A stretch of DNA of 64,000 nucleotides from Paucilactobacillus hokkaidonensis JCM 18461 (GTDB lineage: Bacteria > Bacillota > Bacilli > Lactobacillales > Lactobacillaceae), in the NCBI RefSeq assembly GCF_000829395.1, contig NZ_AP014681.1, positions 1 through 64,000 of the forward strand, given 5' to 3'. A model generated the notes under the pieces. The model had not been told where the DNA came from, ran no database searches, and was given only the letters and a program-made list of their open reading frames with translations. This document shows, piece after piece, positions 4,553-33,601 of the stretch. Both the position numbers and the translations under genes were made by a program. How positions within the stretch are numbered: position 1 is the stretch's first letter; every line of letters begins with the position of its first letter.

Positions 4553-5785
4553 TTATTTATCACGATGATAAAAATCTTTTGTATTAAAGAAGTCATTTAG
4601 AACCGTGTTCTCACCAGTCATTGTTTCATGTAAACGAATACCATCGACATTTATCCGCGCATTACGATAATAATCATTTGTTAATTGACCCCATGATGTC
4701 TGTGACGCATCAACATTATCGAAAATACTGAAACCGCTACTCTTAAGATAAGTGTACTTTGCATTATCATTTGTATAATTTGTAAATGAGCCAATATCTG
4801 CTCCAAATGGGAAAATCAATACTGGTGTTTTACCAACAATTGGTTGTACTTCCTTTTGCCAAAGTGCAGTGTCCTTTTTGATATCATCAACACTGGCCGT
4901 AGTCATATTTATATGACCCCAGGAATGCGATGCAAACTGCCAACCTTCCTTTTTCATAGCGTTAGCAACCTTTGTCGCTTTCTTAACTTCGCGATGTGTC
5001 TTTTTTGTATCACCATATTGACTCTTTGATGAACGATAACCTAGCGCCCCATTATAACCCGTTTCAGCAATCACACCCTTTGAGCCACCGTATGAGAAAT
5101 CTGGATGCTTTTTGATGAAGGTATCAATAATCGGTACCATGTCATAATCACCAATTTTCTTCTGACCATTATTGGTATATTGATTTTTAACATCACCTTG
5201 CTTATTGACGACTAATTTATCTGCAAATCCAGAATTCTTCATATACTCATAATAGTTAACATCATCCTGTGATATAATTAAAGGCTTCTTGCCTTCAGGT
5301 AATTTGACTGGTTTGAAAGTCACCTTCCCTTGTTTATCAATCGAAATGATATCTTTAAAGTTAATTAATACATAGCCATTATCATATAACTGATTCAGCA
5401 TCGGCATAAATTCGTCGATGGTCACCATATAATCTTTGTATCCCTGTGCCTGCTTAGATGAGAAAGCTTTACCAGGATCAACAATTAGTGAATGATAAAA
5501 AAGATGTGAAATTTTTGTCGGATCATCCCACGTGACCAACTTTGACTGTTGCTTATTAATACTCTTTTTTAGATGATCAACTGTTGTTCCTTTGTGCCCC
5601 GATAACACTGATTTTGCTTCTTTATATTGGTACTGTTGACTTAATGATTTTGCCTGCTTTACTGTCTTAGTTGTTTGACTATCAGTTTTTGCAGCCATAA
5701 CATCATCATCAATATTGCCATATAACCCTAAGCCTGCCCCCAAAATCAACCCAATGACAAGACTAGTTATCTTGGTTTTTATCAC
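4553..5785 (-). CDS. Secreted/anchored polysaccharide deacetylase-like protein
   Basis: A CE4-like protein of about 410 residues. The N-terminus is a hydrophobic signal/anchor (TSLVIGLILGAGLGLYG). The carbohydrate-esterase NodB motifs can be followed: SQDDVNYYEYM (paired Asp), FASHSWGHINM (SHxxxH metal site) and LIFPFGADI (R/KPPYG-like loop, without the usual Arg). It probably acts outside the membrane on N-acetylated cell-wall or exopolysaccharide glycans. I chose the GTG at 5785 because GGGGGAG lies 5 nt upstream; the longer frame to 5824 has no ribosome site. It stands alone and its end lies close to an AT-rich gap. Substrate unknown. Confidence 0.75.
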   Translation of the reverse strand: MIKTKITSLVIGLILGAGLGLYGNIDDDVMAAKTDSQTTKTVKQAKSLSQQYQYKEAKSVLSGHKGTTVDHLKKSINKQQSKLVTWDDPTKISHLFYHSLIVDPGKAFSSKQAQGYKDYMVTIDEFMPMLNQLYDNGYVLINFKDIISIDKQGKVTFKPVKLPEGKKPLIISQDDVNYYEYMKNSGFADKLVVNKQGDVKNQYTNNGQKKIGDYDMVPIIDTFIKKHPDFSYGGSKGVIAETGYNGALGYRSSKSQYGDTKKTHREVKKATKVANAMKKEGWQFASHSWGHINMTTASVDDIKKDTALWQKEVQPIVGKTPVLIFPFGADIGSFTNYTNDNAKYTYLKSSGFSIFDNVDASQTSWGQLTNDYYRNARINVDGIRLHETMTGENTVLNDFFNTKDFYHRDK

Positions 5786-5883
5786 AGCTACTCCCCCATA
5801 ATTTTTATGAATATTAAACGACAAGTTAGTGCCATTCTATATCTTATTACCTCAAAAATAAAATTATTCGTATTGTTTTATAA

Positions 5884-6921
5884 GGTAGATTGTAAAATTA
5901 ATCCGAACGCTGTTCGGACAAAAAAGATCAGCTTCCTTTAAAATGGTGTTTACCACAAACCCATCTTTTAGGAGCTGATCTTTTGTCTAGTATAACCTAT
6001 TCCGAACGAATTAAAATCGAAACCTTTTGTGAACTAGGGCTGTCCAATATCCAAATGGGCGTTCGGCTGAACCGATCACCGTCAACAATTTCTTATGAAT
6101 TATCTCGATGTCAACCTTATCAGGCTGAATTAGCACAAGCAGATGCCGAATACAAGCGATCACGATGTGGTCGGAAAACTAAGCTGAGCGATGAGTTAAA
6201 GCAAAAAATTCTCAACCATTTACGTCTAAGCTGGTCACCAGGAATGATTGCTCACGAATTTAAACTAGCTACTAAATCTATTTATAATTGGCTAAATCAG
6301 GGGAGAATTGGTTTCTCCTTGAATGATCTACCTGAACATGGCGTACGCCAACGGCGTAACGTTGACCAACGATCCAAATATAATCAATCTTTGGGGCGAT
6401 CAATTGAACAGCGTCCCATGATGATTAATCAACGTAATCGCATCGGCGATTTTGAACTAGATACAGTCGTTGGTCCTCGTGGGCATAGTAAGGCAGTTTT
6501 ATTAACTTTAATCGATCGAAAATCACGGTTCCTTTGGGCATACCGGTTATCGGACGACAGCGACTGTTAATGAAGCACTAACTAAGTTCCTAACCACTTT
6601 TAACGGTCCGGTGCACAGCTTTACTGTGGACCGTGGCACTGAGTTTAGTGGGCTAGTATCACTTGAATCACAATATGGTATTAAGACCTATTACTGCCAT
6701 GCTTATACTCCAGCTGAACGTGGTAGTAATGAACGCTTTAATCGGAATTTACGTTATTTTTATCCTAAAGGGACTCGTTTTGAGCACATTAGTGCTCAAG
6801 ATTTAACGACGACGTTACTCCAAATTAACCAGCGACCGCTTAAAATACTCGACTGGCAAACACCGTATCAGGTTATGCTGACAAATTTGTCCAAAAATTC
6901 GGATTAAATTTGCAATCTACC
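5884..6921 (+). mobile_element. IS30-family element, transposase frameshifted
   Basis: Inverted repeats bound the element: GGTAGATTGTAAAATTAATC at 5884 and its close complement (GGTAGATTGCAAATTTAATC read inward) ending at 6921. It is about 1.04 kb, the usual size. No clear short target duplication is seen. The same end motif recurs at 28692, 41446 and 54234 in other IS30 copies or remnants. Confidence 0.88.
5983..6907 (+). pseudogene. IS30 transposase, frameshifted
   Basis: The first frame (5983-6570, TTG start after AGGAG) carries the helix-turn-helix and the first half of the DDE domain (IGDFELDTVVG). Reading then leaves the frame near 6550; the conserved sequence resumes one frame over as TTATVNEAL and continues to VDRGTEFSG, the ERGSNERFNR motif and the end at 6907. 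IS30 transposases are normally one frame, so this is most simply an inactivating 1-2 bp indel. I see no slippery heptamer that would make it programmed. Confidence 0.85.
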
Positions 6922-31320: not shown

Positions 31321-31665
31321 TTATTTTTTGCTTTTCATTTTTACATCGCGTGATTCCAAAGTGGAAACTTGCAAATCAAATTCTTTTTGTTCGTTAATAG
31401 ATAACTGCTCGTAGAAAGAATGTATGGCCGTTTCGACAGACAAACGTTGATTTTCTGCATATCCAATCATTGACATTGCTTGAAGTTTATTTCTAGTATG
31501 GTTGCTAATTTTAAGATTGGTGTTGAACGTTACGGAACTAATTTCTTTATTAGTTGGGTTATCTTTTGCGGGATTCACGAAATCTGATGCTTTAGCTTGC
31601 TTTTCAGGCTTGGGAATACTACTTTCTGTATTATTTCTATTGGATCTAATTAATGAATTAGCCAT
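31321..31665 (-). CDS. Small plasmid partition partner of ParA (DUF5388-like)
   Basis: A 114-residue protein coded directly after parA and overlapping it by 8 nt; GAGGTG precedes the ATG at 31665. The N-terminal third is polar and disordered (SIPKPEKQAKASDF), followed by a compact domain NLKISNHTRNKLQAMSMIGY resembling a ribbon-helix-helix. This is the gene order of type Ib partition systems, where the small protein binds the centromere and stimulates the ParA ATPase. The DUF5388 assignment is from recognition of the C-terminal half. Confidence 0.75.
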   Translation of the reverse strand: MANSLIRSNRNNTESSIPKPEKQAKASDFVNPAKDNPTNKEISSVTFNTNLKISNHTRNKLQAMSMIGYAENQRLSVETAIHSFYEQLSINEQKEFDLQVSTLESRDVKMKSKK

Positions 31666-32467
31666 GCTCAATCACCTCAATTCTTGATAGCAATTCATCA
31701 GTTACGTTTTTGTATACATCAAAAACCCTCTTGTCGAATTTGGAACCGAATGTAATTCCAGTAATTCCATACCGTTTGAGCCTTTGCATTGAATGAATTT
31801 TATTTTTAAATATGTTATCTTCACCAAATTCTGAAATAGCATTAGAAACTGTAGCTTCATCAACAGGTGCGCCTGCTTGGAGTAATACGGCTAATATGCC
31901 CACCAACTCCAGCCTAGGTGCTTTGTATTCATTAACTATTTCATCTTGAATATATTTAATAAACGCTTCTGCACCCTCAAAACTATGTTCATGAGTTTGC
32001 ATAATAATTAAGCAATAATCAGATGCATACAGTGCACTATCAGTAATGAGACTTATTGTAGGTGGAATATCAATGATAATATAATCATATTTTTCCTTTA
32101 AAGGATTAAGCAATGTGTTAAAGGCTGTAACCCTATCTAAATATTCATGGTGTTTTTCCATATATCGCGGATATAATGCAAAATCAGGTGCAGACGCCAG
32201 CAAATCTAGATGCTCTTTAATATTAATTAATGAATTTGATAAGTCACCGTCTTCTATGCTGGCCATCAATGTTTTTTTAAAATACCCTACTTCATTGCTG
32301 ATATTTAGCTTAGTTTTTAGGTATAAGTTTGTGGCATTTCCTTGAGGGTCAAGGTCTACTAATAACGTTTGATAGCCGCGATTGCTTAATTCAAGGGCTA
32401 CCATAGTCGAATTACTAGTTTTACCTACGCCACCTTTGAAATTGCCAAAGGTTATTACTTGGGTCAT
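31658..32467 (-). CDS. parA: ParA plasmid-partition ATPase
   Basis: A 269-residue Walker-type ParA. The deviant Walker A GNFKGGVGKTSNS is at about 7-19, LLVDLDPQGNATN (Walker A') at about 36-48 and YIIIDIPPTISL (Walker B) near 130. There is no N-terminal DNA-binding domain, so autoregulation would rest on the small partner. It moves plasmid copies over the nucleoid. GGAGGTG lies 10 nt before the ATG. The repeat array upstream is the likely centromere. Confidence 0.95.
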   Translation of the reverse strand: MTQVITFGNFKGGVGKTSNSTMVALELSNRGYQTLLVDLDPQGNATNLYLKTKLNISNEVGYFKKTLMASIEDGDLSNSLINIKEHLDLLASAPDFALYPRYMEKHHEYLDRVTAFNTLLNPLKEKYDYIIIDIPPTISLITDSALYASDYCLIIMQTHEHSFEGAEAFIKYIQDEIVNEYKAPRLELVGILAVLLQAGAPVDEATVSNAISEFGEDNIFKNKIHSMQRLKRYGITGITFGSKFDKRVFDVYKNVTDELLSRIEVIEHG

Positions 32468-32493
32468 ATGTTATGCACCTCCGTTTTTTTAAT

Positions 32494-32785
32494 AGTAGCA
32501 CTATGTAGTTCCTACTGTCAATAAGTCTAGTGCAATAGTTCTGTAGTGCAATAGTGCTAGCACTATCTAGTTCTAGTACTACGGAACTAAGTAGTTCAAT
32601 AGTGCAATAGTTCTGTAGTTCTAGCAATTAGATAGTAAATTGGTTGGAAAAGCTGATATATCAACGCACTACAGAACTAGATAGTGCAGTAGTGCAATAG
32701 TGCTGTAGCCGTTGCGCTATTGCACTACGAAACTATTGCACTATCTAGTTCTAGCACTACAGGACTATGGCACTACGTAGTGCTA
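32494..32785. repeat. Repeat-rich putative partition centromere (parS)
   Basis: About 290 bp upstream of parA consist of many direct and inverted copies of short, nearly identical blocks, for example AGTGCAATAGTTCTGTAG, GCACTATCTAGTTCTAG and CACTACGTAGTGC. Blocks such as CTAGTTCTAG and TAGTGC occur in both orientations. Position and repetition fit a type Ib parS region that also carries the par promoter. Confidence 0.8.
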
Positions 32786-32797
32786 TTTAAAAAAATG

Positions 32798-32827
32798 TTG
32801 ACATTATAGCAATAAAACAATTATAAT
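32798..32827 (+). promoter_or_regulatory. Plus-strand promoter facing the antisense-RNA locus
   Basis: TTGACA (32798-32803) and TATAAT (32822-32827), both consensus hexamers, are 18 bp apart. Transcription would run toward the terminators at 32838-32911. No gene longer than 17 codons lies before them. Confidence 0.6.
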
Positions 32828-32837
32828 TACATTAAAC

Positions 32838-32971
32838 AAAAAAGCACCTCACAAATTGTGAGATGCAATCAAAATTGAATATAAAAAAAGCCACCCCCGA
32901 TTGCAGTCGGGCGTAACTAAACAGTTTATACGAATTAACTGTATTGTAGCATGTGTGGCGAATTTTGACAA
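32838..32971 (-). ncRNA. Putative antisense RNA resembling RNAII of Fst/par type I antitoxins
   Basis: On the minus strand TTGTCA (32966-32971) and TACAAT (32943-32948) are 17 bp apart. A transcript from about 32936 would form a hairpin ACAGTT...AACTGT and then a terminator CCCGACTGCAATCGGG with GGTGGC and seven T residues (ending about 32883), giving an RNA of some 55-65 nt. A second terminator stem, GCATCTCACAA/TTGTGAGGTGC plus six T, ends at 32838. Size, structure and the converging plus-strand promoter fit pAD1-like par loci. No Fst-like toxin frame is present. Confidence 0.5.
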
Positions 32972-32974
32972 TGT

Positions 32975-33397
32975 AGAAGCCAACCTGCATGGATAAAGTC
33001 CAAACTAAATAGACACGTTTGCCAGTGCGACCGCAATAACAACTGGCTATATCACATAAGCAACGGCCTCGTGTTGTGGGTGATGAATGGTGGTGACCAC
33101 CAATAAGGGTCAGGGCGGTTTACTGGTGCTTACGAGCACGGTAACTAATCACAACGCTATTAGGGCAGTAATTAATAGGGTGGTTAGTTTGTCGAAAGAC
33201 AACAGCTACGAGGTTAACTAAATACGTGAGACGGCCGATCGGTCAAGTAAGTAGTTGAGTTGTACTCTAGTGCGACGCTTATTTTTTTATTTAAAATTTG
33301 CTCGTGACTAGGGTCCAACTTTGCCATTCACCGCTCAACCAACCTCTCAATCAAGCATGGGTGAACCACTAAGTCAATAAAAAGGGAGTGCTTAGTT
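32975..33397. other. Non-coding stretch with dense predicted secondary structure
   Basis: No gene fits here. The DNA is more GC-rich than its surroundings and holds many compact hairpins: GCCAGT/ACTGGC (33021-33047), GGTGGTGACCACC (33089-33101), GTGCTTACGAGCAC (33126-33139), GTTTGTCGAAAGACAAC (33187-33203) and GGCCGATCGGTC (33233-33244), with a T-run at 33281-33287. This is the look of a structured RNA or an origin/transfer element. I cannot match it to a named family. Confidence 0.4.
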
Positions 33398-33601
33398 ATG
33401 GAAATTAGAGGATTAACTTACAATTATTTAAAGATGTTTTGCCAAGAATACTTCGGTGCTGAGTTTCCATGGGAAGTTGATTTAGGGTTGCTGGAAGAAG
33501 CCAAAGATCAATACATATTAATATTATTATGGTCAGAATTTACACATCATGTGTCAAGTTGTCCTAGAGTACCCGAAGAATTAATGGATATATTTCACTA
33601 A
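33398..33601 (+). CDS. Small hypothetical plasmid protein
   Basis: A 67-residue acidic protein (MEIRGLTYNYLKMFCQEYFG...) with AAAGGGAG 9 nt before the ATG. It contains a hydrophobic stretch DQYILILLWSEF but no clear membrane helix. No family is recognised. It follows the structured non-coding region. Confidence 0.45.
   Translation: MEIRGLTYNYLKMFCQEYFGAEFPWEVDLGLLEEAKDQYILILLWSEFTHHVSSCPRVPEELMDIFH

Follow-up and report, generated by a model that had tools for sequence, protein, structure and literature searches.

A plasmid-borne structured RNA as a candidate Rep-independent, antisense-controlled replication origin in Lactobacillaceae

The DNA analyzed here (the window) is a 64,000-nt stretch of the Paucilactobacillus hokkaidonensis JCM 18461 contig NZ_AP014681.1, and its positions 32,971–33,377 (plus strand) constitute a conserved structured RNA. 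The element is restricted to plasmids, occurs once per plasmid, and tends to replace Rep genes. We favor, with good confidence, a Rep-independent, RNA-primed, ColE1-like theta origin under antisense RNA control as the best explanation. With somewhat more reserve, we consider it probable that a family of Rep-free, RNA-primed replicons, evolved apart from ColE1, drives hundreds of Lactobacillaceae plasmids and phage-plasmids, including pWCFS103 and those of Leuconostoc and bee-gut Lactobacillus; that p256 represents a second branch of the mechanism; and that, judged against Rfam 15 and the open-access literature searched, the RNA body constitutes a novel class of large structured RNA.

Results

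Covariation defines a structured RNA with a fixed 3′ end

The element region is richer in GC than its flanks and no convincing gene was found within it, in agreement with a first-pass annotation made from the sequence alone, which had proposed a large structured non-coding RNA or an uncharacterized plasmid element. Folding was more stable than that of shuffled sequences, but modestly so (z = −2.05); because the energy was only mildly unusual, relatives were compared. The resulting alignment (A3) contains 20 diverged relatives and 54 proposed pairs in ten helices. Pairing was kept in 90.6% of cells compared with 80.7% after shuffling, and changes on both sides of a pair were found in 110 cells compared with 38 in shuffled controls and no more than 22 in slid ones, with 23 of the 54 pairs affected. 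Because this alignment also served in part to derive the structure, the slide control is biased in its favor, but an excess of this size is unlikely to stem from that bias alone. Across the relatives, the RNA strand also folds better than its complement (−103.5 versus −81.5). The main features of the RNA body are as follows.

33,009–33,146, plus strand: conserved 5′ domain, matched by covariance model R1 at 136.8 bits
33,094–33,097 with 33,109–33,112, plus strand: covarying hairpin-loop pseudoknot, TGAC with GTCA (helix 6)
33,258–33,270 with 33,308–33,320, plus strand: long 3′ helix, AGTTGTACTCTAG with CTAGGGTCCAACT, T-run in the loop (helix 10)
33,373–33,377, plus strand: invariant 3′ GTCAA, directly after which conservation collapses

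Helix 6 is paired in 20 of 20 sequences and three of its four pairs have changed on both sides, giving GGGC/GCCC, GCGC/GCGC, and GAGC/GCTC in relatives. Helix 10 has both-side changes in seven pairs. The T-run near which the element had been thought to end (33,282–33,288) sits in the loop of this covarying helix and was rejected as a terminator; the element instead ends with the GTCAA at 33,377. GTCAA is the 3′ end of every type compared, and its GTC is able to close onto a GAC at 33,012–33,014. A collapse of conservation at this point is what would be expected of a switch from RNA to DNA. Among 65 close copies of the pWCFS103 type, the conserved block begins upstream at about −130 relative to GGACACG; per-site variability stays close to zero between about −60 and +418, with an abrupt rise directly after GTCAAGTCAAA, and the variable sites within the block lie chiefly in two hairpin loops.

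No Rfam 15 family matched the element at the gathering score, and matches at relaxed thresholds were at chance level; scans of the relatives, including with the RNA I models, were likewise without a match. Two of the checks proposed by the first-pass annotation, an Rfam scan and a covariation analysis of homologs, therefore gave no family and strong covariation, respectively, which bears out its large structured RNA. It had also counted agreement with a known replication origin as a refutation. The element matches no described origin, but an origin is its best-supported function.

The element is spread across plasmids and viral contigs

Blastn with the element retrieved 449 plasmid records at a permissive E of up to 10 and 85 at 1e-5, and a query of the pWCFS103 type retrieved 367 at E 1e-5. 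The plasmid pHY011 carries an element 99.6% identical to that of the window. R1, built on 137 positions of the 5′ domain, matched 63 of the 398 Lactobacillaceae genomes scanned, which fall into 14 of 40 genera; hosts in a pattern scan were Levilactobacillus, Secundilactobacillus, Lentilactobacillus, Furfurilactobacillus, Loigolactobacillus, Companilactobacillus, Liquorilactobacillus, Lacticaseibacillus, and others. One divergent branch is found on 75 Leuconostoc plasmids (R1, 47–54 bits) and another on small plasmids of bee-associated Lactobacillus, where R1 scores 27 bits in L. helsingborgensis (E = 2e-5) and just 14.8 bits for ESL0731 (E = 0.03). In IMG/VR, 17 contigs matched (L196–L212), and those read contain phage genes and ParA. 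Most are of 42–46 kb, a size that suggests lactobacillar phage-plasmids replicating from the element.

Each plasmid has one copy, and up to six such plasmids share a cell; strain G390, with ten plasmids, carries the element on six of them. Among the 13 complete or near-complete genomes under comparison, none gave a chromosomal hit. The other description in the first-pass annotation, an uncharacterized plasmid element, thus fits an RNA that is without an Rfam match and plasmid-borne wherever complete genomes allowed checking.

The window element lies beside a partition module

The contig that carries the element is 81,630 bp long, one of three in the genome, and most likely a plasmid; the element is flanked by plasmid mobilization genes and by a divergent ParA–DUF5388 pair.

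31,321–31,671, minus strand: DUF5388 protein (PF17363), putative ParB-like partner of ParA
31,658–32,467, minus strand: ParA-type partition ATPase, the divergent neighbor in most relatives
32,490–32,790, no strand assigned: short repeats TAGTGCAATAGT and GCACTATCTAGTTC lying between parA and the RNA, a candidate centromere (parS)

In related plasmids this position is occupied by repeats of another sequence, as expected of plasmid-specific centromeres. On the other side, 20 bp past the RNA, is a small open reading frame (33,398–33,601, plus strand; 67 aa) with a ribosome-binding site and no Pfam match; in L005 the element is likewise followed by a near copy, but in the other types it is not. 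A gene for a small BRCT-domain protein follows the element in several plasmids (L024, 3,969–4,247; L026, 3,471–3,749).

The contig also encodes a Rep_3 N-terminal open reading frame (1,256–1,774), a further Rep_3 match at 65,114, and a PriCT_1 primase-type open reading frame (1–1,311); the window plasmid may therefore be a cointegrate. Upstream of the Rep_3 reading frame, which overlaps that of PriCT_1, is a 61-nt Bacillus-plasmid RNA (RF01691; 2,254–2,314, minus strand), and this region is a second, possibly broken replicon. RF01691 is also a plasmid RNA, but it is unrelated to the element.

The element tends to replace Rep genes

The 13 genomes comprise 51 plasmid contigs, of which 27 carry the element, and these were searched for the Rep-related families Rep_3, RepA_N, Rep_OBD, Rep_1, PriCT_1, and Rep_trans. 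Counted by hand and with some of the Rep matches being fragments, a Rep-family match was present on 9 of 27 element plasmids versus 21 of 24 element-free plasmids (Fisher P = 1.5e-4, a guide only because plasmids of the same genome are not fully independent). Forty-eight of the 51 have the element or a Rep match and 18 have the element alone, so that 18 of the 27 carriers are without a Rep-family match and about one in three has both. All ten G390 plasmids are accounted for by one or the other. An annotated Rep is absent from pWCFS103 (36 kb), pHY011 (42.8 kb), pKPP02 (13.2 kb), and the 6.1–6.4-kb bee plasmids, which encode an Rgg regulator, an MFS transporter, a DUF536 protein, and two tiny open reading frames.

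Two of these carriers have further features. The 13-kb Pediococcus plasmid pKPP02 (L034, NZ_CP015920.1) combines terminase, portal, and capsid genes with the element, has no ParA, Rep, or relaxase, and looks like a plasmid-form phage satellite. In bee plasmids L292 and L293 the DUF536 gene is near the RNA, and a DUF536 protein likewise adjoins a p256-type origin in the annotation of NZ_CP024062.1; it is possible that this protein is an accessory of Rep-less replicons.

In 24 of 29 plasmids (P = 8e-5), GC skew over the 10 kb downstream of the element exceeded that over the 10 kb upstream, an asymmetry that could reflect shared gene order. The minimum of cumulative GC skew does not fall systematically at the element and was uninformative as an origin marker.

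An unrecognized Rep elsewhere on the plasmid could instead start replication, with the RNA acting in trans in copy control or maintenance. Many element plasmids do encode hypothetical proteins, and in L. salivarius deletion of a large plasmid-linked RNA lowers megaplasmid copy number (PMC5643018), but the 6.1–6.4-kb bee plasmids have nearly no room for a Rep, the element plasmids have little in common besides the RNA, and the p256 miniori, a short fragment, has no recognized rep gene. We consider this explanation unlikely.

Opposed promoters and a variable antisense region are predicted upstream of the RNA body

The leader of the RNA contains predicted transcription signals on both strands.

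32,798–32,827, plus strand: predicted sense promoter, TTGACA-N18-TATAAT (12/12 to the sigma-70 consensus), with transcription expected to start near 32,834
32,834–33,377, plus strand: predicted sense (preprimer) RNA of ~540 nt; conserved body in the 3′ ~410 nt, antisense target in the 5′ leader
32,943–32,971, minus strand: predicted antisense promoter, TTGTCA-N17-TACAAT (10/12, extended TG), reading leftward across the leader
32,889–32,936, minus strand: predicted antisense RNA, short form of ~50 nt, ending at a hairpin (32,911–32,896) and T-run
32,838–32,888, minus strand: predicted antisense extension to ~99 nt in total, with a second terminator hairpin (32,866–32,844) and T-run

The sense RNA probably spans from the promoter at 32,798 to the GTCAA at 33,377; its start would be ~140 nt upstream of 32,975, where the first-pass annotation had placed the beginning of the element. 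Promoter-like sequences were read by eye just 5′ of the conserved block in all six G390 element plasmids, the B-type counterpart of the antisense promoter reads TTTAAA-N17-TATAAT, and the predicted antisense RNA of pWCFS103 is ~60 nt. Promoter-like matches in the stretch were not in excess (3 versus 3.8 in shuffles), and the assignments therefore rest on promoter quality, position, and conservation. Terminators, at 3 versus 0.7 expected by chance, were in excess. A plasmid reported as bearing non-coding RNA in an RNA-seq study of Pediococcus claussenii, pPECL-8, was considered as a source of transcript evidence and set aside, as it is without the element.

The hypervariable loops fall within the predicted antisense region, whereas the 3′ body is nearly invariant in relatives; each of the six G390 plasmids has an antisense sequence of its own, with a body that is nearly the same in all. 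Identical antisense sequences were found in 0 of 31 pairs of coexisting plasmids, which is only consistent with incompatibility and not significant because just 0.8 would be expected by chance (P = 0.43). Read from the DNA, the opposed promoters, the antisense terminators, and the hypervariability of the loops are each strongly implied, as is antisense control of the sense RNA. With respect to the hallmarks of a ColE1-type system, the short hairpin antisense RNA over the preprimer 5′ end is a sequence prediction, and the ~500–600-nt structured preprimer is seen by covariation, with its promoter-to-3′-end length predicted.

Discussion

A proposed model for RNA-primed replication

In the proposed mechanism, host RNA polymerase would make the ~540-nt RNA from 32,834, and its body would adopt an elaborate pseudoknotted fold ending at GTCAA. 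The 3′ end would remain on, or invade, the template and prime leading-strand synthesis just downstream, in the direction of transcription. The short RNA from the opposite strand would use exposed hairpin loops to pair with the 5′ leader and would block folding of the long RNA into its primer form, setting copy number and incompatibility, while the adjacent divergent parA–DUF5388 module would partition the plasmid. Priming by the RNA 3′ end and the use of RNase H and Pol I are inferred from the ColE1 paradigm, and copy control is likewise inferred.

Alternative functions

The element lies ~500 bp upstream of the divergent parA in most loci, as a partition site (parS) or a regulatory leader of the parA–DUF5388 operon might. 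Such a role is very unlikely: pKPP02 and the bee plasmids have the element without ParA, and the RNA is thus separable from partition; covarying pairs and a pseudoknot would be unexpected in a DNA centromere; and the repeats at 32,490–32,790 are a better parS candidate.

An ornate RNA of the GOLLD or ROOL kind, with a non-replicative function, appears improbable to a similar degree. The element resembles those RNAs in its size, its ornate structure, and its occurrence in lactobacillar mobile elements, among them phage-like contigs of ~44 kb. The comparison had been suggested by the first-pass annotation, but the Rfam scans lend it no support, and the antisense layout with its variable loops and the replacement of Rep point to replication.

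Sense and antisense RNAs on a plasmid are also the layout of a type I toxin–antitoxin system, in which the long RNA would be the message for a toxic peptide, with the short RNA as its antitoxin. This is scarcely credible: across types, no open reading frame of at least 15 codons keeps both its position and its frame, none comes with a ribosome-binding site, and what is conserved is the pairs.

We give almost no credence to an origin of transfer (oriT) for a MobQ-type relaxase: 354 of 449 carriers were typed as mobilizable and the window has a relaxase-like gene downstream of the element, but oriT and parS were both rejected because there are carriers without relaxase and without ParA, the former including non-mobilizable plasmids, and an oriT needs neither a ~400-nt covarying RNA nor an antisense RNA.

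Implications

For many plasmids sequenced from food and gut lactobacilli no replication gene is recognized, and an RNA-primed origin, if correct, would explain how they replicate. In one Levilactobacillus brevis strain, replication of all plasmids has been ascribed to repABC-type genes (PMC3609814). The element would also be a countable replicon and incompatibility marker that is missing from typing tools, and, for vectors in probiotic bacteria, would offer a protein-free origin whose antisense control can be tuned. ColE1-style RNA-primed replication would extend beyond Gram-negatives, on an unrelated RNA, and the widely used p256 vectors would gain a candidate mechanism.

Comparison with known systems

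Predicted features of the element that parallel ColE1 of E. coli (RNA II/RNA I; class B theta) are a ~540-nt sense RNA, a short antisense RNA over the 5′ leader, and 3′-end priming, and the loops of the antisense region are variable in both; replication without a Rep protein would be a further parallel. In contrast to ColE1, the element has no sequence relation to it and no Rfam RNA I match, its body is pseudoknotted and closed by GAC/GTC, and it is found in Gram-positive hosts on large, low-GC mobilizable plasmids and on phage-plasmids with parA.

The other parallel is p256 of Lactiplantibacillus plantarum (NC_006278). One report describes it as theta-type, with the replication gene not found (PMC8346141), and another describes a replicating 1.7-kb plasmid consisting of only the p256 minimal origin and a resistance gene (PMC3526553), a vector without another lactic acid bacterial replication function. 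The published forward primer for this origin maps to 6,247–6,229 on the minus strand of NC_006278, and the origin therefore runs leftward over a non-coding region of ~5,590–6,247, the ~5,590 end being estimated from plasmid size. This region folds as a structured RNA (z = −3.6), with a predicted antisense promoter (11/12) and a predicted antisense RNA of ~105 nt with three hairpins and a U8 tail. In an alignment of four diverged p256 relatives, almost all changes in the antisense region are in the three loops and the stems hold, although overall variability there is not above that of the body. Neither blastn nor the covariance model, with filters off, detected similarity between p256 and the window element, and the parallel is therefore architectural. 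The p256 plasmids are small and without a parA–DUF5388 neighbor, but the predicted arrangement of an antisense promoter, an antisense RNA of three hairpins, and a structured body is shared with the element, and a rep-less minimal origin in lactobacilli, as known for p256, would be common to both.
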